Assembly: GCA_032027045.1 (NCBI GenBank)
Contig: JAVSMU010000001.1
Span: 1-64,000 of the forward strand
Reading direction: 5' to 3'
DNA: 64,000 nt
DNA from: Truepera sp.
Lineage (GTDB): Bacteria > Deinococcota > Deinococci > Deinococcales > Trueperaceae
The notes below the pieces were generated by a model. The model was not told the DNA's origin. It made no database searches and worked only from the letters and a program-made list of their open reading frames with translations. The position numbers and the translations under genes are program-made. This document shows positions 1 to 19,273 of this stretch, piece by piece. Every line of letters starts with the position of its first letter. Positions within the stretch are counted from its first letter, which is position 1.

Positions 1-3000
1 ACGGCCACTCGCGGGATAAGCGAGAAGATGGCCGTACGCTCGTCCGTGCTGCGGGCGATGTCGCGGAACCCCAACAACCAAGGCTGCTCCCACCGCCAGA
101 TCACGTTCCCATCCCGGTCCCGCTTCACGAGCCGCTCCTCGACCTCCACGTCCTCCACCCAGTACCTCGGCATCGGCGCGAAGCTCGGATCTTGGTGCTC
201 CTCGAGTGTCGTGTCGCGGATTCTGCCGTCGCGCTCGTACGTAGCGAAGCGGTGGTCGAAATGGTGAATCATCTTCGCTTCGTAAAGAGGCAGGTAAGTC
301 CCATTACCTTGCCGAAAGATGTTGCCGTCGAGCTCATACCCTTGCGCTTCGAGCTGGTCGCGGGTGCGGAAGAGTCCGGAGTCGCTGGTCATGTTGAACA
401 GCCCTTGCTTGAAGGTGATGTCCCAGGGATTCTCGCCGGTTTCTTCGTTGATGAGGACGGGGAAGCGTTGGTAGATGCGTTTGGTTATCTCGGCGTCGCG
501 GCGGGTGCGGAAGGTGGGTGCGGTGCGCGTGTTGGGGTTGAGGAGTTTGATGTCGTCTGCGGTGAGGGTGAAGCGCTTGTCGGCGTCGAGCACGTCGGTG
601 GGTTCGTGGGCGAAGAAGACGTACCAGGCTTCTTGGATGGGTCGCGCGGAGCCGCTGAGGGTGACGAGGGCGAACTTCACCCGGCTGTCCACGGCTGGGA
701 AGACCTTGCGGCGGTTCTCGAAGTCGTAGAGGCTCACGAGGTTGTGGTTCTCGGTGATGGCGCGGAAGTAGTGCTGGGTGGTGTGGTCGGTGGCGATGCC
801 GCTGGGGACGATGAAGCCGGCGCGTCCGGTGGCGCGGGTGAGGTCGCGGTCGAGTTCGGCGAAAGCGGCGTACGTGTTGATGCGACCCCGCCCGCAGAGC
901 GGGTAGCGACCCGATTTCGCTATGAAGTGCGCGATTCCATCATGCCGGCGCTTAGCCTCCAAGAATGCGCGGTGGAGACTCGGATTCTCGTGTTCGAGGC
1001 GGTCGATGGCTGCTTTGCGGGCGGCACCGGTAGGTGCGTTTGTGATGTCTTGGTCTCGGCTGGCGAACCACTCCTGCTCTTTGAGTTCGGTGTGCTCCCA
1101 GGGCGGGTTACCGAGGACGACATCGAAGCCCGGGTGTTCGCGGTGGAAGACGTCGGCGAACTCGATGCCCCAGTGGAAGTAGCGGTGTCGGTCGCGTAGA
1201 TCGCCGATGACGGCTTGCCGGTCGCTGGTGAGGGTGTGGTCGTTGGCGAGGTCGTGGAGGTCGTTGGTGGTGATGGGGGTGGGTTGGTCCGGGCGTTTGG
1301 GCCAGAAGAACGCGGCGGTCCAGGCGTCGGCGATGGCGTGCGCGCGGGTGAAGCCTTGTTGTTCCTCGAGCTGGTGGTAGGCGACTTCTTTGGCGCGCGT
1401 GGCTTCGATGTCGTCGTCGGGCGTGGCCTCGAGTTTCCGGAGGGAGCGCGCAACTGCGGCGCCGGGGTCGGCGTCTTGGTTGGCGAAGAGGCTGCTTTGT
1501 CCGCCGCGTTCTTCCCGGTTGCGACGCTTGGCTGCGTTGGTGGTTTGCTTGTCGTCGCCGAGGAGGGCGATGTAGGCGTTGTCGGGGATGCCGTCTTGGA
1601 GGAGTTGGGGGATTGTCTTGGTGTGGGGTGCCCCGATGAGGCTGTTGCCGGTCTTTATGTGGTGATCGAGGAAGGTAAGGGGTTTGCCGGGGTCGAGGGC
1701 TTCGAGCCAGAGCGCGACTTTGCAGAGCTCGGCGGCCATGTCGTTGAGGTCCACGCCGTAGAGACAGTGGGTGATGGTGTCGCGAAGGGCGGCTCGGGTG
1801 GCTTGCGGGGTGGGCTCGTCGTCGCCGGTGCGGACTTGGGCGAGGCGTTTGGCGATGCGGTGGGCTGCGGCGATGAGGAAGTGACCGCTGCCGCTGGCGG
1901 GGTCGACGACCTTGAGTTCGAGGATGGCCTTCTCGGCGTCGTCCTTGCGCATGGCTTCGTCGAGGACGGGGTCGAGGGCGCTGTCGAGGAGCAGGGTGAT
2001 GAGGCTGGTGGGGGTGTAGTAACTGCCGGTGGTCTTGCGTTCGTTGCCGGTGAGCGTTTCGAGGGTGAAGTGGCTGGGGTCGGGGTCGAGGCGGGGCTGG
2101 AGTTCGAGGAGGCTTTCGTAGACGCTGCCGAGTTCTTCCGCGCCGAGGTTCTTGTAATCGATGGGGTAACGGGCGTGGTTGACCTGGGTGTATGCGAGGT
2201 GGCGGATGGCGGTGAGGAGGCTGCGGTTGGTGAGCTCGGCGGTGTCGAGGTGGGGGGTGGCACCGGGGCTGAAGAGGAAGCCACCGAGGGCAGGGATGGC
2301 GAGGTCGGAGGCACCGTCGCTGCCGAGCCAGTGCCAGGTGCGTTTGAGGAGCTGGTACTGGTCGGGGTGGCGTCCGCCGGGGATGGCGTCGGCGAGGTCG
2401 CGGAGGCGGCGGGTGGAGTAGTAGGTGTAGCGGCGTCTGGCGTCTTCGCTGGCGGTTGGTGGGTGGAGGAGATCGCGGTCTTCGCTGGCGAAGAGCACGA
2501 GGAAGCGGTAGATGACGCGGAGGAGTTGCCGGTAGTAGTGCTGGGGGGTGAGCGTGCCCTTGGTGAGGTCGGTGCGGAGGTTGGTGTTCGCGGGGTGTTC
2601 GAGGAAGCCTTGCCCGAGGGTGGTGAGGGCTGCGTGAACGCCGTCGCGCAGGCGGTCGAGGGCGCGGGTGCCTTGTTCTTGAGCGGCCCGGGTCCATTGT
2701 TCGAGGAGGGTGTTCTCGGGTTTGTCGGCTTCGAGGCGGCTTTGGTGGAGGGTGAGGTAGAGCAGGACGAAGTCGGCGTAGACCTCGCCGGCCAACATGG
2801 CTTCGAGGTCGAACTCGAGGTACGCCTGGCGGGTGAGGGTGTGGTTGTCGCGTAATAGGCGGAGTTTGAGGCCGTTGCTGACTACACCCCAGAGGCTTTC
2901 GTCGGTGGCGTTGAGGTAGGTCTGGATGAGGCCGTGGGGGCTTTGCCTGGCGGCGCCTGCAACGCCGGCGGTGCGGGTGTCGAGGTCGATATTGCAGCCG

Positions 3001-3380
3001 ACGAGGTGGATGGGGACGTGCGACCAAGCGTGGCTAATGGGGTAGGTCTTGCCGCCCAACTCGCGAACGGTGGTGGTTTGGAGGCGACCGTAGTCGAGGA
3101 CTTGGAAGAGTGGGAGGAGCCAGCGGTCACGAGTGGTGGCGGTGCCGGGGTTGCCCGGGGGAATCGTGGCGCGGGCCGCTTGGAAGGCGGCCCAGGCGCC
3201 TTGGAGTTTGTTCCAGGCTTCGCTGATGGCTTCGCTGAGCCGGGTGTGCCCGATGAGGTGGTAGGCGTCGGGAGTGAGGCCGGGGAGGTCTTTGTCGGTG
3301 TCGCGGAGGCGTCTGAGGAGGTCGGGGGGAAGGAGCGCGCCTTCGGTGCGGATGGTGGTGAAGTCGTGGTGGCGGGCCAT
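1..3380 (-). CDS. Eco57I-class N6-adenine DNA methyltransferase (DrmMI/PglX-like), 3' end outside window
   Basis: Probable adenine-specific DNA methyltransferase that would mark host DNA for the neighbouring helicases. The reading frame is open from ATG at 3380 to the left edge, about 1126 codons, so the C-terminus is missing. SAM-binding motif I (VVDPASGSGHFL) lies near residues 491-502 and the catalytic NPPW at 758-761 (1098-1109), preceded by GFDVVLG. The N-terminal 450 residues resemble the long lead region of PglX/DrmMI proteins. The last visible residues (RSTDERTAIFSLIPR) match the block that follows the target-recognition part in these families. The start is 3 bases after the SNF2 stop, so the genes are co-transcribed. 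The family assignment is secure; the choice between a DISARM, BREX or other system rests on the neighbours. Confidence 0.9.
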   Translation of the reverse strand, partial: MARHHDFTTIRTEGALLPPDLLRRLRDTDKDLPGLTPDAYHLIGHTRLSEAISEAWNKLQGAWAAFQAARATIPPGNPGTATTRDRWLLPLFQVLDYGRLQTTTVRELGGKTYPISHAWSHVPIHLVGCNIDLDTRTAGVAGAARQSPHGLIQTYLNATDESLWGVVSNGLKLRLLRDNHTLTRQAYLEFDLEAMLAGEVYADFVLLYLTLHQSRLEADKPENTLLEQWTRAAQEQGTRALDRLRDGVHAALTTLGQGFLEHPANTNLRTDLTKGTLTPQHYYRQLLRVIYRFLVLFASEDRDLLHPPTASEDARRRYTYYSTRRLRDLADAIPGGRHPDQYQLLKRTWHWLGSDGASDLAIPALGGFLFSPGATPHLDTAELTNRSLLTAIRHLAYTQVNHARYPIDYKNLGAEELGSVYESLLELQPRLDPDPSHFTLETLTGNERKTTGSYYTPTSLITLLLDSALDPVLDEAMRKDDAEKAILELKVVDPASGSGHFLIAAAHRIAKRLAQVRTGDDEPTPQATRAALRDTITHCLYGVDLNDMAAELCKVALWLEALDPGKPLTFLDHHIKTGNSLIGAPHTKTIPQLLQDGIPDNAYIALLGDDKQTTNAAKRRNREERGGQSSLFANQDADPGAAVARSLRKLEATPDDDIEATRAKEVAYHQLEEQQGFTRAHAIADAWTAAFFWPKRPDQPTPITTNDLHDLANDHTLTSDRQAVIGDLRDRHRYFHWGIEFADVFHREHPGFDVVLGNPPWEHTELKEQEWFASRDQDITNAPTGAARKAAIDRLEHENPSLHRAFLEAKRRHDGIAHFIAKSGRYPLCGRGRINTYAAFAELDRDLTRATGRAGFIVPSGIATDHTTQHYFRAITENHNLVSLYDFENRRKVFPAVDSRVKFALVTLSGSARPIQEAWYVFFAHEPTDVLDADKRFTLTADDIKLLNPNTRTAPTFRTRRDAEITKRIYQRFPVLINEETGENPWDITFKQGLFNMTSDSGLFRTRDQLEAQGYELDGNIFRQGNGTYLPLYEAKMIHHFDHRFATYERDGRIRDTTLEEHQDPSFAPMPRYWVEDVEVEERLVKRDRDGNVIWRWEQPWLLGFRDIARSTDERTAIFSLIPRVA

Positions 3381-3383
3381 GAC

Positions 3384-6212
3384 CTAGGCGGGAAGGTAGG
3401 TGTACACGCCGAGGATATCGACGGGAAGGAGCGGTTCGACCTGGTACCGCAGGCCTTTTGCGCGCGCCGCTTCGCGCACGCGGCGGTGCGCCTCCAGCAG
3501 CGCCTGCGCGTGCGCCTCGGCGGTGTCGTTGAGGTGGGGGTTGATGGCGTTGGCGCCGTCGAGGAAGCGTTGGTGGTAGTCGCGGGCCTGGCCGGGGTCG
3601 ATGTTGCCGCCCGGGGTGGCGGCGAGGAGCGCGGCGGTGGCGTCCTCTTCGAGCCAGGTAGCGCTCTCGGTGGCGCCTTGGTAGGCGAGGAGGGCGATGT
3701 CCTCGGCGAGAGTCTGCCAGGTGCGGCCGGCGTGGGTGGTGGTGAGGTGGTAGCGGAACCGGGCGAGCAGGAGAGTCGTACGGACTTCGACGGCGTGGGT
3801 GCGCATGACGCCGGCCCGTTTGGCGGTGCTCTCAAGGTGTTCGTCGAGGGCGGCGTCGAGCACGTACGTGGCTAGCGCCTCGGTGAACGGATGGGTGCGG
3901 GTGAGAAGCGTCTCGCCGGGTCTGGTTGGTGGTCCGAGGCGTGCGCGCATGCGCGTGTGCTCGGCGTGGATGGCGTCCTTGAGAGCGGTGGGGGCGCTGC
4001 TGAGGTCGAGGTCCAATGCGCCGTGGCGAGTAGGGGTGGCTATGCCCTTGTGGGCGCGGACGGCGGTGGTGAGGAAGCGCTCGAGCAGGTGCTTGCCGCC
4101 GAGGGCGGTTTGGGCGGCCGTGAGTTCGCGCATGACCTCGTCCGGTTTGAGGCTTTCCTGCGCGAAGACGGTGCGGGAGCGTCGTTCGCGGTCGGCGGCG
4201 GCGTCCCACTTACGGCCAAGGTCGGCCGCCTTGGGTTTGATGTACTCGTCGAGGTCGTCGAAGAGCGCGGCTTGCTGGGCGTGGCCGCGGTCGAGGCCGC
4301 GCAGGAGCAGTCCTTCGAAGATGGCTTCGATGAGTTCGTCGCTTTGGGCGGGCACTGGGACGCTGATGCCGAGGCTGGTGCGGATGGTCTTGTGCTTGCG
4401 GATGAGCACGTCGAGCACGATGCCGTCGATCTGGTTGTCGGTGCCGTACATCGTGCGCATCAGGACCTTGGGTTGAGGTTGGCCGTAGCGATCGACGCGG
4501 CCTTCGCGCTGCTCGTGCCTCGTGGGGTTCCAGCTGAGGTCGTAGTGGATGACGGCGTCGAAGGCGGCCTGCAGGTTCACGCCTTCGCTGAGGCAATCCG
4601 TCGCGACGAGCACGCGTTTTTCGGATTTGGCGAGGTCGAGGATCCGCGCTTCACGTTCCTCGGGCACCAGCCTGCCGGTGACGGCGGCGACGTCCACGCC
4701 GTTCATGGCGCCGCGGAGCGCGTCGGCGACGTACTCGGCGGTGGGGATGAAGCGGCAGAAGACGATGGGCGCGTACCCGTCCTTGACCAGATCCTTCACG
4801 AGCTTGATGACGGTGGAGAGCTTGTTGTCGTGCTCGCCGCCAAGCGCGTCGGCTTCGCGGGCGTAGGCGAGGAGGCGCTTGCGGTGGTTGCTGGCGTCGT
4901 CGTCGGTCTCTTGGCTGCCGGGGGTGACGTCGATGCCTTCGTTGGTCTCGTCGTCTACTTGGTCGAGGACGGTGCGCCGCCCGAGCTCATCGGCCTCCGC
5001 GGCGGACTCGGTCTCGCTGACGACGGCGCGGTTGCGTAGAGTGCTGGCGGCGGCGGCGGGACTGCTGGCGAGGGCGCGCAGCAGCGCGAGCATGCTCCAC
5101 CAACGCACGCGTTGCCGGTGGCTGCCGTCGCCGGTGTCGAGTGTCTCGCGGGCATATGCCAGAACCTTCTCGAAGAGGCCCTTGTACTCGGGGCTGAGCG
5201 TGTAGGGCACGTCAGCGTCGTCGCGTTCAGGGAAGGGCGTGGCGGCGTCCATGTAGCTGCGGATGTCGCCGCGTTTGCGTTGCACGAAGTGTCGTGCGAG
5301 GGCGCGCCGCGCCTGCTGGTTGTGCTGACCGCTGAGGTCCTCCGGGAGTTGCGCGAAGGCTGGCTCGAGGAGGCTCAGGAGGCTTCGGAAGGCGTGCTCG
5401 TTGCCGCTGTGGGGGGTCGCTGTGACGAGCAGGAGGTTGCGCGTGGGGTCGCGCGCGAGGTCGCGCAGCAGCCGGTGGCGTTGGTGTTGGCTGCTGCGCC
5501 CGACGGTGCCGGGGTCGGCGCAGGTGTGCGCCTCGTCGACGATGACGAGTTCGGGCGCGCCGCGCAGGAACTCGTCGCGGTGCCGCTCAGACTTGATGTA
5601 GTCGAGGCTGACGATGGTGAAGGGGTGCCGGTCGAAGACGCTCTCGCCGAGGCGCAGACCGCGTTCGAGCTTGCGCACGGTGCTGGGCAGCACCAGCTCG
5701 GCGGCAATGTGGAAGCGCTCGGCGAGCTCGTCACGCCACTGCTCGGCCAGGTGGGGTGGGCAAAGGACGCTGATGCGCGTGATCTCGCCCCGGTCGAGCA
5801 GCTCGCGAGCGACGAGTGCCGCTTCGATCGTCTTGCCGATGCCGACGTCGTCCGCGATGAGGAGTCGTACGGGGTCGAGCTTGAGCGCCATGAGGAGCGG
5901 CACGAGTTGGTAGGGGCGCGGTTCCACTGCGATGCGCCCGAGGCTGCGGAACGGCCCGGTGGTGGCGCGTGCGGTGAGCATGGCAGCGTCGCGTAGCATG
6001 CCGGCGCTGCGAGCGTCACCCAGGTCGTCGCCAGTTGGAAGGGCGAAGGTGGCGCTTGTGACGTCGTCGCGTTCGAGGGGGAGGTAGACGGCGGTGGTTT
6101 CCTCTGCCCGCCCGCCGAGCGCGCGCAGGACGAGGAAGTCGTCGGTGCTGTCGGGTTGCACCACCCACTCGCGGCCACGGGTACGGACGAGGCTACCGGT
6201 TTCGAACGTCAC
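3384..6212 (-). CDS. SNF2/HepA-type helicase (DrmD-like)
   Basis: A 942-aa superfamily 2 ATPase of the SNF2/RapA branch. Walker A is DDVGIGKT at residues 121-128 and DEAH is at 226-229. The helicase motif III TATPHSGN and the motif VI region QREGRVDRYGQ are both present. An acidic and basic insert separates the two RecA lobes. The size and the adjoining adenine methyltransferase resemble DrmD-DrmMI of class 1 DISARM. The start is GTG at 6212 with GGAGA seven bases upstream. The stop lies 3 bases before the methyltransferase ATG. The likely role is DNA translocation or remodelling in a restriction-like defence complex; this is inferred from family and context. Confidence 0.9.
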   Translation of the reverse strand: MTFETGSLVRTRGREWVVQPDSTDDFLVLRALGGRAEETTAVYLPLERDDVTSATFALPTGDDLGDARSAGMLRDAAMLTARATTGPFRSLGRIAVEPRPYQLVPLLMALKLDPVRLLIADDVGIGKTIEAALVARELLDRGEITRISVLCPPHLAEQWRDELAERFHIAAELVLPSTVRKLERGLRLGESVFDRHPFTIVSLDYIKSERHRDEFLRGAPELVIVDEAHTCADPGTVGRSSQHQRHRLLRDLARDPTRNLLLVTATPHSGNEHAFRSLLSLLEPAFAQLPEDLSGQHNQQARRALARHFVQRKRGDIRSYMDAATPFPERDDADVPYTLSPEYKGLFEKVLAYARETLDTGDGSHRQRVRWWSMLALLRALASSPAAAASTLRNRAVVSETESAAEADELGRRTVLDQVDDETNEGIDVTPGSQETDDDASNHRKRLLAYAREADALGGEHDNKLSTVIKLVKDLVKDGYAPIVFCRFIPTAEYVADALRGAMNGVDVAAVTGRLVPEEREARILDLAKSEKRVLVATDCLSEGVNLQAAFDAVIHYDLSWNPTRHEQREGRVDRYGQPQPKVLMRTMYGTDNQIDGIVLDVLIRKHKTIRTSLGISVPVPAQSDELIEAIFEGLLLRGLDRGHAQQAALFDDLDEYIKPKAADLGRKWDAAADRERRSRTVFAQESLKPDEVMRELTAAQTALGGKHLLERFLTTAVRAHKGIATPTRHGALDLDLSSAPTALKDAIHAEHTRMRARLGPPTRPGETLLTRTHPFTEALATYVLDAALDEHLESTAKRAGVMRTHAVEVRTTLLLARFRYHLTTTHAGRTWQTLAEDIALLAYQGATESATWLEEDATAALLAATPGGNIDPGQARDYHQRFLDGANAINPHLNDTAEAHAQALLEAHRRVREAARAKGLRYQVEPLLPVDILGVYTYLPA

Positions 6213-6248
6213 GCTGGATCTCCGTTTCGTGGGCCTGTGGCTGCTGAG

Positions 6249-6364
6249 GCGCTCACGGGGGCTCGGTTGGGGCGGCGTGCCGTCGTTGCGTGGGCACGAC
6301 TGGGGCGGTGGACGGTCATCGCGCGGGCACGGTTGAGTCGGCGAATGGTCATCGCGCGGGTCCG
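6249..6364. repeat. 33-bp tandem repeat, about 3.5 degenerate copies
   Basis: Clear units begin at 6282, 6315 and 6348, with a more diverged copy before 6282. The units share GTCRTYGCG and GGGCACG cores. The last partial copy covers the final codons and stop of the large helicase gene, so the array grew from, or into, its 3' end. It fills the 136-base gap before the SNF2 gene. Confidence 0.75.
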
Positions 6365-9300
6365 AACAGCCAGGCGTACTCCTCGAGTTTCCGGGGCCAG
6401 TCGTCGTAGTGGTGGAAGCGGATGACGGTGTAGCCGCGGTCGTCGAGGCGTTGGTCGAACTCGCAGTCGCGCATCTGTCGCTCGGGGTGGTCGTGATGTG
6501 GGCCGTCGACGTATATGACGGCCTTGATGCTGTCGGTTAGATAGGCGAAGTCGGGGCGGGTGCCGGCGTCCTCGATGCGTTGCTGCGCGTGCGTGGGCAG
6601 GCGGTGCCCGCGACGCTCGAGTAGGTCGAGGAAGTTGCGTTCGAGGTCGGATTCGCACAGGCGCCGGAGGCGCGTGAGTTGCTCTGAGCGCGGTAGATGC
6701 GTGCTGGACGCCTCGGTGCGCGCAGCGGTCAGGGCCATGAGGTGCTCGTGGATGGCGTGCCGGTCGAGTAACGCGTGGCTCATCTGGTTGCTGTAGGACA
6801 TAAGGCAGTCGTAGCAGGCGGCCTCGCAACGTTCGGCGGCGTGCGGGGCGTGGTCTTGGTCCTCGCCCGAGATGGGGTCGAAGTGGCAGATCTCCAACGC
6901 GCGCATGGCAATGCGGCTCACGGCGGTGGGTTCGTCCAGCAGGTGTCGCAGCACACCGGCGCCGCCCTCGGCGGCCTCGTAGAGCAGGATGGTGCGCGGT
7001 GGAGTGTCCGGGGTGCCGGGGAGAAGTTCGGCGGCGAGCTCGTTCTCCTCCAGTTGGTACTCGACTTGGATGGCGGTCTTGAGCGCGTCGCGTAGCGTGT
7101 GGAACTGCGCCTCGTCCAGGTGCAGGTTGCCGCCCGGTTCCCACAGCATGGCGTTGCGCGTGTCGTCGACGTAGGGGATGACGGTCTTAACCTGCTTGAA
7201 GCCTTCGGCGGCAGCGTCGTTGTCGGCCTCGTCGAGGCCTTCGGCTTCCTTGTTACTGGCCCACTTGCCGCTCTTGAGGTCGAGTGGGAAGCCGTAGGCG
7301 TGCTTGTTCTCGCGTCGGCGCCAACCCAGGTTGATGCGCCACAGGGTGGCGGCGGGCGCGATGGTCACGTTGGCCAATTCCGCACCATCGGCGCCCTTGA
7401 CAGTGCCGGCGCGGGTGACGGGTCGGCCATCGCTGGTGGCGAAGCGCACGGCCGTGATGACCTCGTAACCGAGGCGTTGGCGTTCCTCCTCATCACTGTT
7501 GATGCGCGCCACTCGCGTGGTGGAGACGTTCTGCAGGCGCAGCAGATCGACCAGGGTGTGGTCGAGTTGCGCGCGGCAATGCTCGCACGTGTCCGGGCCG
7601 GGGTCGCCGACGAGCGGGTGCAGGTACCCGCAAACTCTGCACAGCTTGGCACGGCCGCTGGCGAGGCCCTCCACTTCGTTGTCCTGCGCGAGATTGACCT
7701 TGGTGACGCGGTACTTCGAGCCTTCGTGGTAGATGAGCGCGCGCGGCCCGAACTCGTGGATGGCCAGGAAGCGCGGGCGTTGCACGAACTCGTCACGCAC
7801 CGCGCCAAGGCGCCGGCCGGGGATGTACGCCGCCAGCGGCAGGCGCGGGAACGAATAGCCCGGTAGGAAGCCTTCGCTGGCGAAGTAACGGTAGGAGTAG
7901 AAGTCGCTCTGCATCGCCTTGCCCGTGTCGGTGAGTAGTCCCATCTGGTTCTCGGCTTCGCCGCGCAGGCGCTTGGCTTGCGTCTTCTCCCCCGCGCTCT
8001 TGGTGGCGTCGGCGATGACGGCGTTGGCAGCGTGGAACTGCGCGGTGGAGCTGCGGTACAGCTCGCGCCAGCGGTCGCAGGCCAGGTCGAAGTTCTCCGC
8101 GGCGTTGCGCAGTGTGTCGTTCAACCACTCCGGGTGGTACCAAGGCGCATTCGCGAACGCTTCTTCGTCCCGCTCGAGCAGCTTCGCGACACGCGTGGCC
8201 GCCCGCAACCTAGCCTGTGGGTTCTCCAGGTCTGCGCGCAGTTGCTCCCGGACGGGCAGGGCGGGTTCGTCGATGACCAGAACGTCGCGCAGAGAGCGGC
8301 CAAGGTCGGCCTTCGTCTCCGACAGCCACACGGCGTGCACGTGCGCACGCACGAGGTCTTCGTTGGCGAGATCGAGGCGCGGTGGCTCCACCACACCCGC
8401 CACCATGCGGTCTTGCCGAGCAAAGTAGTACTGGTCGTGTCCGCTGCCCGTGGCGCAGTAAGTGAACACCAATGCTGGTTGCCCACTCCGGCCGGCACGG
8501 CCCGAGCGCTGTGCGTAGTTCGCAGGGGTGGGAGGCACGTTGCGCATGTTCACGATGTTCAACTCGGCGATGTCTACCCCAAGCTCCATCGTCGGGGAGC
8601 AGTACAGCACCGGCAGGCGCCCCTCGCGGAACTCCTCCTCGCGCTCCTCGCGCCACTCGCTCGGCACCTGCGCGGTGTGCTCGCGCGCCTCGAGGTTGCC
8701 CAGGTGCAGCGCCGTCTCCTGATAGAAGCGCCGGAAGAAGACGTTGATGTGCCCATCCTCCTCCTCGCCGCGCACGGCTTTGAGCGGGTCGTCGTACGGG
8801 TGGGTGCCGTCCCCCGCATGCCACCTCAGAGCACTGGGGCGCAGACGGTACCCGGGGACTTGCCCCTCCTTCGTGCCAGGGTGCACGACCGCCAGGAATC
8901 CGTAGTTGGCGAGTCGTTCGAGCAAGATCTTGATGATGGTCTGGGAGTCCTCGACGGTCAATTTCGCGTCCAGGTGTGGGAAGGTCGCCAAGCGCCGCAG
9001 GTAACGTGCGTACTGGCTGCGGCCGGACACGTAGATATTCTTGCCACGTTCGAGCTTGGTTTGCGAGCGCGGGTACGCGGTCGTGTGGTACTCCAGTTTC
9101 TCGTTCTCGTCGAATGCCCAATGGCCCTTAAGGAAGTTGCGGCTGCGCGTCTGGACCTGCTCCTGGAAGGCCGGGTCGAGCCACTCGGTGTCGATGGCAA
9201 GGTTGCGGCGGAAGTGCTCCAGTAGCACCTTGGCGACGTCGAAGCGCTGCTGCGCGTTGGCACCTGCGAGAGCCTCGTGTGTGTCCGCCCACAAGGCGTC

Positions 9301-11565
9301 CTGCGAGCAGGCGTCCAGCAGATCCGGGTAGCGGATTTCAAGCAACCCGACCTGCTCGAGGTTAGGCGCGGTGAGGCGCCAGCCCCGCTCCAAGTCGCGG
9401 TAGATGCGGTACGACAACACCTCGCGCAGCGACTTCGCCGCATCGTTCCGGATGGCGGTGCCCACGAACTGACCAACGTTGGCGGCGTACTCGAACAGAT
9501 CCATGTCGAGCGCCTGGAACACCGCCGGCGCGACTGCGTCGAAGCCGAGACCTGCATCGCCCGCGTCGCGCACCGCCTTGTACAGCGAGCCGCGAAGCAT
9601 GCCGACATCCACGAAGTCGTTGAAGTGCCCCGCCTGCAAACTGGCGTCCTGACGGTTGTCCGTGAAGCTCAACAGTTTCCGCGCCTTCGCGGGCAGGTCG
9701 TCCGTAGCCTGTAACTGCCGGATGGCGGAGAGCGACAAGACGGTGGTTGCGGTTGCTCGTCCACCTGTTCCCAGCACGCTGACGCGCGAGTACTCGTTGC
9801 CGCTTGACGGGTAATACACGCCGCAGTTCAGGCAGAAGTTCAGCGCCGCCGGCACGAACTGGAAGGCAGCGCCTCCCACGCCCGGCCGACCGTCCGGCAG
9901 TAGGCTGACGGGCGATGGGACTCGCTCGCGCTTGTCGTACTTCACGCGCAGCTCGCCGTTCTTCTCCTCGAGCCAATCCTCCGGCAATGCCTGAAACTCC
10001 TCGAGTGAGTCCTTCGCAGGCCATGGCCGCTCCGCGTTCATGTAGAGATATCCGGCGCTGGCGTCACCCGTGCCACGGACCTCACCCAGGCGCCTCGGCG
10101 TGAACCTCAGGCCGCCCTCGTCCTGCGCTCGCCACACGGTGTAGTACTCGTGCCCGCATTCGCGGCAGAACGCCAGCGGCAACAGCACCTTCTGGGGCTC
10201 CCCTGGCACCAGTTTCTGTGCCCGCAACGTCACGTACCGTTCGCCTGGTGGTTCGGGCGAGGCGTACACGGTGTCGCCCCGGTTGTAGAACTGGTGCAGC
10301 CGGAACGCGAACGCCCGCAGCGGCCGGTTGCTGGCCGGGTCGTCCACGATGTCGTACCCGGCAGTAAGCAAGCGCTGCAACGGGGCCTCTGTACTGCCCG
10401 TTGGGAGCCCCGTGAGATGCTCGAGCGCGGCAGCAACGCCGTCCGGGCCGGTGAGGCGCTGCGGCGTCTGCCGCACGAGCGTGCCCGTTTCCTCGTCCAC
10501 CCGCACGCCGATGGTCGACTCCACCCACGAGCACAATGGATCCTGCACGAACTCCGAGAACGGCTTAGTGATCAGCGACTCGACGGCCTGCACGCTGGCG
10601 GCCAACCGCTCGGGCAGGCTGGCGTCATCGAGGTCGATGGGGGCCGTGATGCGTCGGAGGGTTTCGCCGACCACGTGTTCGGCCTTCACGTCGTCACCGA
10701 ACACCTTGGTGGCGACGCGCGCCACCTCCTCGCGCTGCTCGCGGATGCCGCCGCGGCTACCCATGGTGGCCGACGTACCGATGCACTGCAGGTCGGGCCC
10801 GCCCATGCGGTCGCGGACGCGGCGGATCAGCATGGCTACGTCTGCACCCTGGCGACCGCGGTACGTGTGCAACTCGTCGAACACCAGGTACTTCAAGCCC
10901 GACGCAGACTGAACGAGGGACTCATCCCGTCCCCGCGTGAGGATGAGCTCGAGCATCACGTAGTTGGTCAGCAGGATGTCCGGAGGGTTCTCCTTGATGC
11001 GCCGGCGGGTTTCCTCGTCGTCTTGACCCGTGTAGCGGTTGTAAGTAACCGGCGGCGTGCTGCCGAAGCCGAATCCCAGGAACTTCTCGAGCTCACCCGC
11101 TTGGCTGTTCGCCAACGCGTTCATGGGATACACGACGATGGCCTGGATGCCCTTGCCGGACCCATGTCGAAGCACGTGGTCGACGATCGGGATGATGTAC
11201 GTAAGACTCTTTCCCGAACCCGTGCCCGTCGTGACGACGTAGTTGTCGCCGCCTCGCGCGATGTCGATGGCTTCCACTTGATGCTTGTACAGATCGAGAG
11301 GCACGCCGTACTCCGTCTCGCTCTTGCCGTGACGGAAGACGTCCGCGCACAGCGGATGAAGCTTGTCGCCCTTGACGAGGTCCGGCACGCTGGCGCCGGT
11401 AGCAAAGGCCGGGTTCAGCTGCACCAGGGGCTCGGGCCAGAGCTCCTGGGTATCGAAGGCTTTCTGCACTCTGTTTGCAACATCGTGCGTCGTGACGTGG
11501 ATGAAGCTGCGCGCATACTCGGAGTAGTCGCGGGTGAGTAGGTTGCGGAAGTTGAAGATGTCCAC
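6349..11565 (-). CDS. Giant DEAD/DEAH helicase with DUF1998-type region and C-terminal Vsr/DUF559-like nuclease (DruE/DrmAB-like)
   Basis: A 1738-aa superfamily 2 protein. Walker A TGTGSGKS is at residues 113-120, DELH at 230-233 and GTSATMGS near 263-270. The conserved helicase C-terminal segment NYAQRSGRAGRSGQ lies mid-protein. Zinc-type cysteine pairs occur at CRECG, CLNCG, CRVCG and CEHC. The DUF1998/MZB-type signature CEAACYDCLMSYSNQ comes late. The last ~110 residues (LERNFLDLLERRG, then PDFAY and VIYVDGPHHD) resemble Vsr/DUF559 nucleases. Length and order recall DruE of Druantia, or DrmA and DrmB joined. I chose GTG at 11565 because MDIFNFRNLLTRDYSEY is the usual family start and GGGGGA lies just upstream. 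An ATG at 11691 would add 42 unconvincing residues. Confidence 0.88.
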   Translation of the reverse strand: MDIFNFRNLLTRDYSEYARSFIHVTTHDVANRVQKAFDTQELWPEPLVQLNPAFATGASVPDLVKGDKLHPLCADVFRHGKSETEYGVPLDLYKHQVEAIDIARGGDNYVVTTGTGSGKSLTYIIPIVDHVLRHGSGKGIQAIVVYPMNALANSQAGELEKFLGFGFGSTPPVTYNRYTGQDDEETRRRIKENPPDILLTNYVMLELILTRGRDESLVQSASGLKYLVFDELHTYRGRQGADVAMLIRRVRDRMGGPDLQCIGTSATMGSRGGIREQREEVARVATKVFGDDVKAEHVVGETLRRITAPIDLDDASLPERLAASVQAVESLITKPFSEFVQDPLCSWVESTIGVRVDEETGTLVRQTPQRLTGPDGVAAALEHLTGLPTGSTEAPLQRLLTAGYDIVDDPASNRPLRAFAFRLHQFYNRGDTVYASPEPPGERYVTLRAQKLVPGEPQKVLLPLAFCRECGHEYYTVWRAQDEGGLRFTPRRLGEVRGTGDASAGYLYMNAERPWPAKDSLEEFQALPEDWLEEKNGELRVKYDKRERVPSPVSLLPDGRPGVGGAAFQFVPAALNFCLNCGVYYPSSGNEYSRVSVLGTGGRATATTVLSLSAIRQLQATDDLPAKARKLLSFTDNRQDASLQAGHFNDFVDVGMLRGSLYKAVRDAGDAGLGFDAVAPAVFQALDMDLFEYAANVGQFVGTAIRNDAAKSLREVLSYRIYRDLERGWRLTAPNLEQVGLLEIRYPDLLDACSQDALWADTHEALAGANAQQRFDVAKVLLEHFRRNLAIDTEWLDPAFQEQVQTRSRNFLKGHWAFDENEKLEYHTTAYPRSQTKLERGKNIYVSGRSQYARYLRRLATFPHLDAKLTVEDSQTIIKILLERLANYGFLAVVHPGTKEGQVPGYRLRPSALRWHAGDGTHPYDDPLKAVRGEEEDGHINVFFRRFYQETALHLGNLEAREHTAQVPSEWREEREEEFREGRLPVLYCSPTMELGVDIAELNIVNMRNVPPTPANYAQRSGRAGRSGQPALVFTYCATGSGHDQYYFARQDRMVAGVVEPPRLDLANEDLVRAHVHAVWLSETKADLGRSLRDVLVIDEPALPVREQLRADLENPQARLRAATRVAKLLERDEEAFANAPWYHPEWLNDTLRNAAENFDLACDRWRELYRSSTAQFHAANAVIADATKSAGEKTQAKRLRGEAENQMGLLTDTGKAMQSDFYSYRYFASEGFLPGYSFPRLPLAAYIPGRRLGAVRDEFVQRPRFLAIHEFGPRALIYHEGSKYRVTKVNLAQDNEVEGLASGRAKLCRVCGYLHPLVGDPGPDTCEHCRAQLDHTLVDLLRLQNVSTTRVARINSDEEERQRLGYEVITAVRFATSDGRPVTRAGTVKGADGAELANVTIAPAATLWRINLGWRRRENKHAYGFPLDLKSGKWASNKEAEGLDEADNDAAAEGFKQVKTVIPYVDDTRNAMLWEPGGNLHLDEAQFHTLRDALKTAIQVEYQLEENELAAELLPGTPDTPPRTILLYEAAEGGAGVLRHLLDEPTAVSRIAMRALEICHFDPISGEDQDHAPHAAERCEAACYDCLMSYSNQMSHALLDRHAIHEHLMALTAARTEASSTHLPRSEQLTRLRRLCESDLERNFLDLLERRGHRLPTHAQQRIEDAGTRPDFAYLTDSIKAVIYVDGPHHDHPERQMRDCEFDQRLDDRGYTVIRFHHYDDWPRKLEEYAWLFGPAR

Positions 11566-11739
11566 TTGTCCCCCGATGCAACTGGCGCAATCGCTCAGAT
11601 AGCCTACCTGGAATGCCTCGAAGTCTTGGGGGAGACATCGCACATTCTTACGTCTGGTAGCCGATAGTCGCGCTTCCTGCGGTGCTGGCATGCTGCGGCG
11701 GACTTCGGCAAGGTCCGCAGGCCACGAGCGGCTGGACGG

Positions 11740-11752
11740 CGCATGTCATGCG
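11740..11752. promoter_or_regulatory. Palindrome in divergent defence promoter region
   Basis: CGCATG-T-CATGCG is a perfect 6+1+6 inverted repeat between the divergent helicase and WYL genes. A similar pair of GATCA-containing blocks lies at about 11759 and 11868. The position suits an operator for the WYL regulator; this is inference only. Confidence 0.35.
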
Positions 11753-11903
11753 TTTGGCGTGATCAGGATTACCTCGAAGGACAGGCAATCTCGAGCACTC
11801 CACCGAGGCAAGCGCAGTAGTTGCATCTTGAACGCGTATTTGGCGCGAGGGTGACCTCCGAGGTGTTGCGATCACCGATTGAACCTAGCCTGGCCTCCAC
11901 CGG

Positions 11904-11909
11904 TAGCAT
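11904..11909 (+). promoter_or_regulatory. Leaderless -10 element of the WYL gene
   Basis: TAGCAT lies 6 bases before the ATG at 11916, and there is no Shine-Dalgarno sequence. A weak TTGAAC lies 19 bases upstream of it. Confidence 0.5.
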
Positions 11910-11915
11910 GACCTC

Positions 11916-12893
11916 ATGGCGCGCAGCCTGACAAAGGCTCAGAACCTCCAGCGGTTGATCGACCTTCTCAGGTCGCGTCCGATGTCGAGCCGGGACCTGG
12001 CTGGCGAGTTGGACCTCAGCCAGCGCAAGATCCAGCGCTACCTGAACGAGCTTAGTTCGGATTTTCCCGAGTTGAACCGCGATGAACGCGGCCGCTATAG
12101 CCTGCCGAAGGTCGACCGTAGTGGAGAACTGAACCGGGTCGAAGCGCTGGCTGTGCACAGCGCGACTCGACTGTTGTTGCATCACACCAGGTCGAACGAG
12201 CGGCATTATCGGAGCGCGCTACGGAAGCTGGCAACACGCTTGCCCGAGCCGGCGCGGCTGCAATTGGAGCGTAGTCTCGAGCGCCACAAGTCGAAGACCG
12301 GCGAGCCTAGCCAGCGAAACCTCGAGCTGGTGGCCGAGGCCTGGTTCAGTGGTCGGGTGATGAAGTTCAGTTATACGGCTCCCATCGGTAGTGGCAAGCC
12401 GCATCCTTACGTGTTCGAGACCTACTTCGTCGAGGTGAGCCCGATCAACTTGCTGACCTACGTCATCGGGTTGGAACGCAGTCACTTCAAGCATCAGGTG
12501 ACTCTGTTGATTGATCGCATATCGAACGCCTCGTTGACCGATGAGCAGTATCAGATCCCAGCAGAATTCGATGCCAGTGCCTATTTGGAGCACGCCTGGG
12601 GCATCGTCGGTGGCAAGAAGATCGAGGTGCTGATCCGGATTTCGGAGCAGGGGGCGCGCCACTTGGACGAGAGCTTCGTGCGGGCGGCCGTGGTGGAGGA
12701 GATCAGCGAGGAGGGTGACCTTTTCTTACGGCTCACTGCTGGGGTAGATAAGCACGGCATCCCTATCGATTTGATTCCCTGGTTGCTCAGTTGGGGCGAG
12801 CAGGTCGAGGTTCTCGAGCCCGTTGAGTTGCGCGCGTACGTGGCGAGTCGGCTGGGCGAGGCCGCTCGCCAGTACGGCGGGACTAGCTCTTAA
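11916..12893 (+). CDS. WYL-domain transcriptional regulator
   Basis: A 325-aa regulator. A winged helix-turn-helix occupies roughly residues 5-60 (SSRDLAGELDLSQRKIQRYLNEL). The middle holds a WYL-type ligand-binding domain (VMKFSYTAP, then INLLTYVIGLER) and the C-terminus a WCX-like region. WYL regulators often sit beside phage-defence operons and repress or sense nucleic-acid-type ligands. Here the gene is divergent from the helicase-helicase-methyltransferase operon with about 350 bases between the two starts, so it probably controls that operon. No Shine-Dalgarno site precedes the start; see the leaderless -10 at 11904. Confidence 0.88.
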   Translation: MARSLTKAQNLQRLIDLLRSRPMSSRDLAGELDLSQRKIQRYLNELSSDFPELNRDERGRYSLPKVDRSGELNRVEALAVHSATRLLLHHTRSNERHYRSALRKLATRLPEPARLQLERSLERHKSKTGEPSQRNLELVAEAWFSGRVMKFSYTAPIGSGKPHPYVFETYFVEVSPINLLTYVIGLERSHFKHQVTLLIDRISNASLTDEQYQIPAEFDASAYLEHAWGIVGGKKIEVLIRISEQGARHLDESFVRAAVVEEISEEGDLFLRLTAGVDKHGIPIDLIPWLLSWGEQVEVLEPVELRAYVASRLGEAARQYGGTSS

Positions 12894-12924
12894 CCGAGGC
12901 GAGCACAATCAAGCAGACTTACCT

Positions 12925-12938
12925 GCCTCCGGGGAGGC
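12925..12938 (+). terminator. Short GC hairpin after the WYL gene
   Basis: GCCTCC-GG-GGAGGC is a compact stem 32 bases after the WYL stop. It has no T-tract, so termination would be weak or factor-dependent. Confidence 0.3.
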
Positions 12939-13025
12939 GAAGTCCCTGGTTTGACGTCACACCGCGTCATTACTTGTCGCGTACCGCGGCTACGGTGGTC
13001 CTAGAAACACTAGGGAGGAAGCCGT

Positions 13026-13874
13026 GTGAAGTTGTTATCGCTGAACGCAACCGATGGCGGAACGAGGCTCTACCCGCGTTTCTTTAGTCGGCTGGGTGAC
13101 TTGGCGCCGGACGTCGTCACGCTTCAGGAGATGCGGCGTCAGCAAGTTGGTTATTGGCGGCGTGGCCTGGCCGAGCGCGGCTATCAGGTGGTTGACAGTT
13201 TCGAGTTGGCTGATAGGTTCGGTGTGGCGCTGGACGGCGGCTTTCGGCTCGATGGCCTGCTGTTGGCTAGCCGCTGGCCTTTCGAGGTTCTGGATCCAAC
13301 GCGTTGGGATTTGCCTTGGCCGGAGCGAGCGCTGTCGGCGGTGGTGGCGGGCCCGGGCGGCAAGTTCGCGGTTCACACGGTTCACGTGCCGAACGCTTCG
13401 ACTGGCATCACACTTTATCGGAAGGACAGGGAGGCTGGTGCTGATCGGTTGGCGAAGAAGACGGAGACTTTCGAAGGTGTTTTTGCCGGCCTGGCCGAGT
13501 CGCCGGAGCTTCCTAAGGTGTTGACTGGTGATTTCAATACGCCGCGTTTCGAGCGGCCTGATGGGGAGGTGGGTTACTGGGAGGAGTCGTGCCCTGCGGC
13601 GTTGAGGCCGGTCTTGAGGGACCGTTGGCTTGCGGCTGAGCGCAACGTTATTCAGGGCCTTGGCAAGTACGGCATGTATGACGTGTTCCGTGGCTTGCAT
13701 GGCTATGAGAGGGAGGCTTTCAGTTGGGAGGCGACGAACAAGGTGTCGCGCTACCGTTACGATCATGTCTTCGCTTCGGAGGTCTTCAAGCCGGTTGCTT
13801 GCGAATACTTGCATGAGTTCAGGCTGAATTCCAGTCATCACGCGGGGATCTTGGCGGACTTGGAGCTTCGGTGA
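13026..13874 (+). CDS. Endonuclease/exonuclease/phosphatase (EEP) family protein
   Basis: A 282-aa protein of the DNase I/exonuclease III fold. The Mg-binding glutamate sits in TLQEMR near residue 35. GDFNTPRF carries the central Asp-Asn pair, YDHVFAS is the late Asp-His segment, and SSHHAGI replaces the usual SDHxP end. The start is GTG at 13026, with GGGAGGAAG seven bases upstream and a small inverted repeat (CCTAG...CTAGG) just before it. The gene lies 132 bases after the WYL regulator on the same strand. It could be an extra nuclease of the defence locus or an independent phosphodiesterase; the sequence does not decide. Confidence 0.85.
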   Translation: MKLLSLNATDGGTRLYPRFFSRLGDLAPDVVTLQEMRRQQVGYWRRGLAERGYQVVDSFELADRFGVALDGGFRLDGLLLASRWPFEVLDPTRWDLPWPERALSAVVAGPGGKFAVHTVHVPNASTGITLYRKDREAGADRLAKKTETFEGVFAGLAESPELPKVLTGDFNTPRFERPDGEVGYWEESCPAALRPVLRDRWLAAERNVIQGLGKYGMYDVFRGLHGYEREAFSWEATNKVSRYRYDHVFASEVFKPVACEYLHEFRLNSSHHAGILADLELR

Positions 13875-14066: not shown

Positions 14067-14777
14067 ATGGAACCAGCGTTTTACGTCCTGCCGGACCCGC
14101 GTGAGGTACCGAACTACGGCCCTACGCAGGCCGCGCGGTACTTGCGTATGAATGTTTCCACGCTCCGCACGTGGTTCTTCGGCCGTCCATACGAGACGAC
14201 GGCTGGCCGCTCTCACTTCGATCCCTTGATCCGCCCGGCAAGCGAGGTTCCGAAGCTGTTGTCGTTCAACAACCTCATCGAAGCGCACATGCTGCTTGCG
14301 CTGCGGCGCGTCCACGAGGTGCCCATGAGTGCTGTACGTGAGGCACTCGACGTGGCGGCGGAGCGCCTTGGCGTTGGAAGGCCCCTTCTGCTAGACAGCC
14401 TGGGGACGGCGTTCGGAGAGATCTTCATCGAGCAGTACGGCCGCGTCGTGCACCTGCGGCGCACCCAGCAGATCGCACTCGAGGATTATTTCGAGGCGCA
14501 CCTGCAGCGGGTAACTCTCGACCAGCTCTTCACACCCACGGAGTTCTTCCCGTTCCCGCGAGCGTCAACGGTGTTCCTTGGCGAGGATGGCGACCGCCCC
14601 ATCTCGATCAACCCGCGCCGGGGCTTTGGGCAACCGGTGATAGCAGGCACCGGTATTCAGACAACCGTGATCGCCGAGCGTATGAACGCCGGTGAGGACG
14701 AGCACTTCCTCGCTGAAGACTACGGCCTAACGACGGCCCAGATCCGTGCCGCAATCGTCTTTGAAGAAGCCGCCTGA
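14067..14777 (+). CDS. DUF433 antitoxin with N-terminal HTH
   Basis: A 236-aa protein. The N-terminal MerR-like helix-turn-helix (TQAARYLRMNVSTLRTWF, about residues 17-34) probably binds the operon promoter. The C-terminal ~60 residues (RRGFGQPVIAGTGIQTTVIAERMNAGE) are a DUF433 domain, known as the antitoxin partner of PIN-like toxins. The gene overlaps the PIN gene by 32 bases, as expected for a coupled pair. The start is uncertain. ATG at 14067 has no close ribosome site, whereas AGGAGGAG at 14038-14045 is ideally placed for an in-frame CTG at 14052. Confidence 0.85.
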   Translation: MEPAFYVLPDPREVPNYGPTQAARYLRMNVSTLRTWFFGRPYETTAGRSHFDPLIRPASEVPKLLSFNNLIEAHMLLALRRVHEVPMSAVREALDVAAERLGVGRPLLLDSLGTAFGEIFIEQYGRVVHLRRTQQIALEDYFEAHLQRVTLDQLFTPTEFFPFPRASTVFLGEDGDRPISINPRRGFGQPVIAGTGIQTTVIAERMNAGEDEHFLAEDYGLTTAQIRAAIVFEEAA

Positions 14778-15228
14778 ACCGCTCGAGTTCTTCGTCGATC
14801 GAAGCCTAGGGCGGATTGTGTTCCCCGGCATTCTGCGCAAGCACGGACTGCCAGCGCGCGTGCACGATGAGATCTTCTCGCCTGACACTCCAGACGAGGA
14901 GTGGATCACCCAAGTAGCAGCCTGGGGACTCGTCGCGATTACGCGTGACAAGCGGATCGGAAGCACACCAACCGAACTGCACGCGGTGTTCGCCGCGGGT
15001 CTTCGGCTGATCGTGATCGTAGGCGGGAGCGTCCCAGCGGACGAACTCGCACACAACTTCGTCAAGGCGCATTCATCGATCCAGAGATTCGTGGCGAAGC
15101 ATCCGGCGCCCTTCATTGCGAAGCTCTCGCGGCCAGCGTCCGCCTCAGTGCTGAAGCGCGGAGGGCACGGGGAGCTCCGGATTTACAAGTCGCGCGAGGA
15201 TCTTTCGACCCAGTTCGGAGGGGGCTGA
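14746..15228 (+). CDS. PIN-like (VapC45/DUF5615-type) toxin
   Basis: A 160-aa protein, the probable ribonuclease toxin of the DUF433 pair. Acidic residues typical of this PIN-like branch are visible in FFVDRSLG, SPDTPDEEWI and AITRDKRIG. The start shown is GTG at 14746, inside the antitoxin gene. A TTG further on (about 14763) would also keep the domain intact. Cleavage target unknown. Confidence 0.8.
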   Translation: MPQSSLKKPPEPLEFFVDRSLGRIVFPGILRKHGLPARVHDEIFSPDTPDEEWITQVAAWGLVAITRDKRIGSTPTELHAVFAAGLRLIVIVGGSVPADELAHNFVKAHSSIQRFVAKHPAPFIAKLSRPASASVLKRGGHGELRIYKSREDLSTQFGGG

Positions 15229-18140: not shown

Positions 18141-19273
18141 CTAACTCTCATCGTAGAACAGCTCGACGTACTCGCTATAGATGAAACGGCGATTACGCTT
18201 CTGTCCGGTTATTTCGTGCAGCACGCCGTGCGCGACGAGCTGCGCGACCAGATTGTTGGCAGCGGGGTAGCTCGTCTCATTCAGGTCCTGGATTTCGGTC
18301 ACGGCCACGATCGGATGCTGGTAGAGATGTTCTAGCACACGATGTCCGTTGCCGGCCGCGCGGCCAAGAGCGTCGGCGATGAGCTGCCTGTGGCGCTCGC
18401 GCAACGACAGGATGCGGCCGGCCGTCTCGGTGGCTTGCTGGCTTACTTCGTAGACGCCCGTTAAGAAGAAGATCAGCCACTGCTCCCAGGCGCCCTGGTC
18501 CCGCACCGCCTGCAGATGATCGTAATACTCCTGGCGATGGCGCTTGAAATAATGCGAGAGATACAGTACCGGCTTTAACAGAACCTGCTTCTCACACAGC
18601 AGGAATGTGATCAGCAGCCGCCCGATCCGGCCGTTGCCGTCGAGGAAAGGATGGATGGTTTCGAACTGGGCATGGGCTAGGCCGATTCGAATTAAGAGTG
18701 GCAGCGGCGACTCGTCGTGCAGGAAATCTTCAAGTTCGCCCAGCAGACGGGGCAATTCATGCGGTGGAGGAGGCACGAAGGTCGCCTGATCGAGCGTACA
18801 GCCGCCGGGACCAATCCAGTTCTGACTTGTGCGCAGCTCGCCGGGCGACAGGTGTTGCCCGCGGACACCGGCTAGTAGCCGATCGTGGATCTCTCGTATC
18901 AGCCGCACCGATACCGGTAGGGTAGCCAGCCGCTCGAGCCCGTAGTTCATGGCATTGACGTAGTTGAACACCTCGTCAACGTCATCCGGATGAGCTGCCG
19001 AGAAGATGCGGCCTCCGCTGTTAGCACGTCCTGGAGCGAGCTTTGTGTACCCTCTATCTGGCTGGATAGCACCGCCTCCTTGCGGACGTACATAGCAACG
19101 AAGGGATCGGGATGCGGCAGGGTCAGGATTGAACCATCGAGTCGACCCAGTGCACGGTCGGCTTGGGAGAGCAGAGCTTGAAGTTCACCCTCTATTCGAA
19201 TGGGCGGATCAGGTGGCAGCGGCGCCGGCAAGAATGCCTGATATCCACCTTTGCCGGACATAGCGGCCGGCAC
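18141..19273 (-). pseudogene. Fic family protein split by a frameshift
   Basis: Two overlapping frames together make a normal ~378-aa class II Fic protein. The first (19273-18947) carries the N-terminal domain, including the inhibitory helix SSQIEGT. The second (18971-18141, GTG start) carries the catalytic core with HPFLDGNGRIGRLL and a C-terminal winged helix. Continuity is restored by one extra base near 19005: after AEA the other frame reads IFSAAHPDDVDEVFNYVNAMNYG, which is family-typical. So a 1-base deletion (or sequencing error) separates AMPylation core and inhibitor. If the core is translated alone it would be deregulated. It lies next to the hsdR stump. Confidence 0.8.

Follow-up and report, generated by a model that had tools for sequence, protein, structure and literature searches.

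A probable complete ARMADA type I operon and its second copy in a Truepera chromosome

Genes and domains of the operon

The window, that is, the whole stretch of 64,000 nucleotides of Truepera sp. DNA analysed here, begins with three genes on the reverse strand. The first gene (6349–11565) encodes a YprA-family (DruE/ArmC-like) SF2 helicase-nuclease with a GTG start at 11565. The initial annotation opened this frame at ATG 11691 (1780 residues); we placed the start at GTG 11565 because most homologues begin at that position, and the protein is probably 1738 residues long, judging from these homologues. It matches the DEAD (97 bits), Helicase_C (48 bits), and MZB/DUF1998 (41 bits) profiles and carries a Walker A motif (GTGSGKS, residues 114–120), a DELH motif (230–233), and the MZB/DUF1998 cysteine cluster (CEAACYDC, 1580–1587). 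The paired cysteines 467/470, 578/581, 1309/1312, and 1327/1330 are kept in the YprA alignment. The second gene (3384–6212, reverse strand) encodes a BrxHII/RapA-like SNF2 helicase (ArmA/DrmD-like) of 942 residues with GIGKT (124), DEAH (226), and QREGRVDR (568) motifs. The third gene, of which the window holds positions 1–3380 (reverse strand), encodes a PglX/DrmMI-like N6-adenine DNA methyltransferase of the Eco57I type (ArmB-like), which matches the Eco57I profile with 72 bits and has DPASGSG (493) and NPPW (758) motifs. The SNF2 stop and the methyltransferase start are 3 bp apart, and 136 bp separate the YprA and SNF2 genes. A 33-bp tandem repeat (2.2 copies, 6288–6360) lies at the YprA/SNF2 junction. 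The genes and motifs named in the initial annotation (DEAD/DEAH, DEAH, NPPW, the DUF1998 cysteine cluster, and a WYL regulator) were all recovered by profile and motif, and so was its single fused helicase-nuclease, one 1738-residue YprA gene in place of DrmA and DrmB.

The left edge of the window is the start of a single 2.92-Mb contig, which we read as circular because its last 100 bases are identical to its first 100. When the contig was extended leftwards across this join, the methyltransferase gene, described earlier as running off the edge, continued to a stop at G000:C1:2918826 and a total of 1284 residues, a length that depends on the contig being circular. The further downstream components that had been suspected there do not exist; beyond the methyltransferase lie a fragment of another methyltransferase gene, oriented the other way, then genes for an Mrr-like endonuclease and an integrase, and tRNA-Val.

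The C-terminal end of the YprA protein (6352–6723, reverse strand) carries the motif RPDF ... VDGPHH ... D ... G-x-V-IRF of a Vsr-type PD-(D/E)xK nuclease domain. A DUF559/Vsr-like profile matched it with 19.6 bits, slightly below the cut-off of 20.6; the domain was also compared at the level of predicted structure. An AlphaFold2 model of the C-terminal 124 residues (mean pLDDT 90.7) aligned with Escherichia coli Vsr (1cw0; Z 8.2, rmsd 3.0, 93 aligned residues, 23% identity; 1vsr, Z 7.7) and with the homing endonuclease I-Bth0305I (Z 9.5). Foldseek alone gave weak matches, several of them PD-(D/E)xK nucleases, and did not name Vsr; it was the second aligner that did so. Across 39 aligned sequences, the putative active site has three invariant Asp positions and one nearly invariant His. 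The modelled fold thus confirms a Vsr-type nuclease, predicted to be active, at the end of the giant protein, as the initial annotation had proposed in more general terms. A C-terminal Vsr nuclease that is predicted to be active is a published trait of ARMADA YprA proteins (PMC12458937).

Conservation of the gene set and the status of its neighbours

Scanning a single genome for each species gave at least 581 stretches encoding relatives, and 80 of the loci listed were kept, 51 of them with at least 7.5 kb of DNA downstream of the YprA gene. Among these listed matches, the SNF2 gene comes next on the same strand in 50 of 51 loci and the methyltransferase lies downstream in all 51, so that the gene order, which the initial annotation had proposed to look for elsewhere, is not unique to this genome. 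By record title, the hosts among the matches listed include Deinococcota, Chloroflexi, Actinomycetes, Bryobacterales, Planctomycetota, and several Proteobacteria. Comparison of these loci indicates that the three genes form a unit far beyond chance, with an order that is conserved across many phyla.

Several loci with the same order are on plasmids, namely in Deinococcus radiodurans (MP1), D. radiophilus, Nocardioides, Rhodococcus, Roseomonas, and Caballeronia. In D. radiodurans R1, the ARMADA I methyltransferase of plasmid MP1 (L026:18946-22497) is split into two annotated genes, and the operon, which has transposase genes on its flanks, is possibly a broken copy. The conjugative Nocardioides plasmid pNOCA01 (L027) carries DISARM drmAB, ARMADA I, and McrBC genes in one row. 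On the megaplasmid of A. caldus (L031), the three ARMADA genes are separated by insertions of an IS21 element and a VapC-type toxin–antitoxin pair. Plasmid pMESIL01 of Allomeiothermus silvanus (L046) has an ARMADA II-like order of SNF2, methyltransferase, YprA, and UvrD-like genes, preceded by a BREX brxL gene.

Upstream of the operon, on the forward strand, lie a divergent gene for a WYL/WCX-domain regulator (11916–12893, 325 residues) and a gene for an EEP (exonuclease III-like) protein (13026–13874, 282 residues). The initial annotation counted both among the components of the locus. Among the matches listed, homologues of these genes were found near none of 51 relatives with at least 3 kb of upstream DNA, and both were rejected as core genes; for the WYL gene this is a weak check, the neighbourhood profile having been built partly from unverified open frames. 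The EEP gene is moreover present in one of 41 related genomes, that of the window itself. Relatives of the WYL protein, with about 42% identity, are encoded elsewhere in congeners and in the window genome. Going by these neighbourhoods, the EEP and WYL genes are neighbours of the operon and not conserved parts of the system. The WYL protein also matches the first third of the PADLOC Cas3c model (163 bits), which suggests that members of this family are fused or linked to CRISPR genes as well.

Assignment to ARMADA type I and comparison with related systems

ARMADA type I was defined by Bell et al. (bioRxiv, September 2025) by a YprA homologue as the first gene, followed by BrxHII-like and PglX-like genes (PMC12458937). 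The window operon has this gene set in this order within one operon, and its YprA protein ends in the Vsr-type PD-(D/E)xK nuclease described above. In the YprA tree, which was built without the published type I reference WP_108720193.1, the window protein pairs with a paralogue from its own genome (100/99) and falls in a 15-row group made up solely of ARMADA I loci with the same or the reversed order; the support of this group is 88/100, with an ultrafast bootstrap below 95. Reversed gene order is known for cyanobacterial ARMADA type I (PMC12458937), and the Chroococcidiopsis locus found here agrees with that report. The ArmC and DruE III rows fall outside the 15-row group. Because the deep branches of the tree are long, we gave gene order and domain content more weight than the tree in deciding membership.

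We put the probability that these genes make up a complete ARMADA type I antiphage operon at about 0.93. The likeness extends to the gene set, the order YprA > BrxHII > PglX, the fusion of DUF1998 and a Vsr nuclease in one protein, and the broad phyletic spread, and we found no essential difference; the particular features here are a Deinococcota chromosome with two copies and a divergent WYL regulator beside the window copy. YprA proteins of ARMADA type I as a system have a BrxA-like insert after RecA1, a Zn-binding β-barrel and a MarR-like insert in RecA2, and one insert in the OB region. The operon is an ordinary member of an already described kind of system and not a new type.

The initial annotation had instead seen a candidate new type, a hybrid of DISARM and Druantia with the WYL and EEP proteins as components. 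Such a hybrid would account for the best PADLOC matches of the three proteins (DruE3, DpdE/DrmD, and DrmMI) and for the position of the WYL and EEP genes directly upstream. However, the three-gene set, its order, and its nuclease type had already been published as ARMADA I (PMC12458937), which refutes the claim of novelty, and the set is widespread; the two upstream genes do not accompany it in the relatives compared above. We therefore regard the hybrid as highly improbable. What does stand is the kinship with both systems, since ARMADA was described in 2025 as the link between DISARM and Druantia (PMC12458937).

The experimentally tested counterpart of the ARMADA type I operon is ARMADA type II of E. 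coli, which gives broad, non-abortive defence that needs all four genes as well as residues of the motors and the methyltransferase (PMC12458937). ArmA, ArmC, and ArmB of E. coli ATCC 8739 (NC_010468.1, locus L032) align with the window SNF2, YprA, and methyltransferase proteins, respectively; they were taken from the annotated island that also served in the published experiments (PMC12458937). The residues mutated in ArmA (K136/D236), ArmC (K110/D234), and ArmB (G605/N971), which were tested in the NCTC 12900 system (PMC12458937), are all kept in the window proteins (6 of 6), as K127/D226, K119/D230, and G497/N758. The type II order is ArmA-ArmB-ArmC-ArmD, with ArmD a RelE-fused GajB-like helicase, whereas the window operon starts with YprA and is without ArmD. 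A GajB-like UvrD helicase gene at 19620–21548 (forward strand) was rejected as ArmD; it is encoded on the other strand at a distance of about 8 kb and has no N-terminal extension.

DISARM class 1 shares with the window operon the genes for a SNF2 helicase (DrmD-like) and an adenine methyltransferase (DrmMI-like) and a YprA-family helicase. In DISARM, however, DrmA and DrmB are separate and a PLD nuclease, DrmC, is present, whereas in the window helicase and DUF1998 are fused in one gene and no PLD nuclease gene was found among the neighbours scanned, in line with the initial annotation. The SNF2 protein scores 321 bits against DrmD, below the cut-off of 610. Druantia shares the giant YprA helicase with DUF1998 and a C-terminal nuclease, and DruE3 is the top PADLOC profile (339 bits); Druantia type III has paired PLD domains, whereas the window YprA has a Vsr nuclease and is on a branch separate from the DruE III rows. 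No Druantia partner gene, such as DruH of type III, was found among the neighbours scanned with PADLOC.

The SNF2 protein could also be read as DpdE, the locus then being a Dpd- or BRIGADE-type modified-base system with an incidental methyltransferase. The PADLOC DpdE model PDLC02853 does match the SNF2 protein end to end, with 831 bits, and because it fits an ARMADA SNF2 protein in this way, we infer that the model probably contains ARMADA sequences. Against the NCBIfam models, by contrast, the SNF2 protein reaches 200 bits for DpdE (cut-off 500) and the YprA protein 77 bits for DpdJ (cut-off 800). A 7-deazaguanine gene was absent from the neighbours scanned, and a methyltransferase that is part of the operon in 51 of 51 loci among the matches listed is hardly incidental. 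A modified-base system is thus exceedingly improbable.

A further option makes the large methyltransferase the main enzyme of a restriction-modification system like BREX or type IIG, with the helicases as accessory proteins. Its matches to type IIG models (170 bits) and to Eco57I fit that arrangement, but a profile search detected no nuclease domain in the methyltransferase, its best score against BREX PglX was 41 bits (cut-off 400; 1126 of 1284 residues scanned), and the neighbours scanned include no PglZ, BrxC, or BrxL. We consider this arrangement extremely unlikely. The initial annotation was thus right in finding no fit to known DISARM, Druantia, or BREX systems: scores lie below the curated cut-offs and partner genes are lacking among the neighbours scanned.

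The profile search it had suggested gave PADLOC matches to parts (DruE3, DpdE, and DrmMI). The parts receive these names because there was no ARMADA model among the PADLOC 2023 matches, nor was there one among those of NCBIfam 2026; the labels are family resemblances. Standard defence profiles thus name one known system as three, and current annotation libraries hide ARMADA I.

Two copies beside tRNA genes and the proposed mode of action

A second complete ARMADA I operon with the same order is present in the same genome (L006, G000:C1:1420000-1439999), with its YprA, SNF2, and methyltransferase genes at L006 12737-17917, 9906-12788, and 5968-9909, all on the reverse strand. The two copies are 54% (YprA), 65% (SNF2), and 52% (methyltransferase) identical. 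The methyltransferases are least alike at their C-termini, where identity per 100 residues drops to 38% and then 24%, compared with 39–73% elsewhere; this would fit different target sites in the two copies.

Both copies have a tRNA gene and an integrase as neighbours. The second copy adjoins tRNA-Pro, a tyrosine integrase, and a ParB-like gene. The window copy adjoins an Mrr-like endonuclease (L005:17767-18951, reverse strand; PADLOC candidate PDC-S02, 443 bits), a tyrosine integrase (L005:15656-16852, reverse strand), and, beside the latter, tRNA-Val (L005:15479-15553). Another ARMADA-type methyltransferase has left a C-terminal fragment of about 165 residues immediately outside the left edge of the window (L005:18887-19399, forward strand), where it meets the intact methyltransferase gene tail to tail. 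The distance between tRNA-Val and the amidase block is 3.3 kb in the congener G005 and 27.9 kb here, so that this tRNA carries about 24.5 kb of additional DNA, to which ARMADA belongs. An attachment-site repeat was not found: the last 25 bp of tRNA-Val have no second copy in the genome, with up to 3 mismatches allowed, and the window holds no 14-bp match. A related YprA gene occurs in one of five congeners searched (G003, L033); it is 71% identical, is cut to 1344 residues, and adjoins a transposase gene, with no SNF2 or methyltransferase gene found nearby. Occurrence this scattered is consistent with a mobile defence island.

Besides the GajB-like UvrD helicase gene, the window holds further defence-like genes, for a SoFic-like Fic protein (18141–18971, reverse strand) and a McrBC-like pair (32080–35033, reverse strand). 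A DUF433 antitoxin-like gene overlaps a PIN_10 gene (14067–15228, forward strand), likely as a toxin–antitoxin pair. A predicted tRNA-Gly of 87 bases (33973–34059, reverse strand) lies inside an AAA_5 open frame and is probably a false call.

For the mode of action, the operon itself offers its gene content and order, key residues that are intact in motor, methyltransferase, and nuclease alike, its wide conservation, and its setting in a genomic island. The PglX-like methyltransferase would mark specific sites in host DNA, and together with the SNF2/BrxHII-like motor it could tell unmodified invading DNA from self. The YprA motor might then load on exposed single-stranded DNA and translocate, after which its Vsr-type nuclease would cut the invading DNA, so that replication stops and the cell survives; the type I YprA protein would in this way be a motor-nuclease effector. 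DruE, a YprA relative, is loaded onto 3′ single-stranded DNA and assembles there before it cuts (PMC13192584), and a 2026 review places ARMADA among the systems whose restriction of unmodified DNA works by unknown mechanisms (PMC12904381). Both the sequence of these steps and their substrate are wholly inferred. The divergent WYL protein may be a local regulator of the operon. Antiphage defence would be the role of type I systems in general, this operon included; in the literature we found no experimental test of type I, and the antiphage activity published so far is that of type II.

What stands out is that one genome holds two different copies of ARMADA I. As a tentative idea, these two complete and long-diverged systems may read different sites and so give layered immunity, and the methyltransferase fragment may be the relic of a third. 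Intact type I operons in Deinococcota, with a natural pair in one genome, are material for testing type I, and it is this pair that merits further attention.
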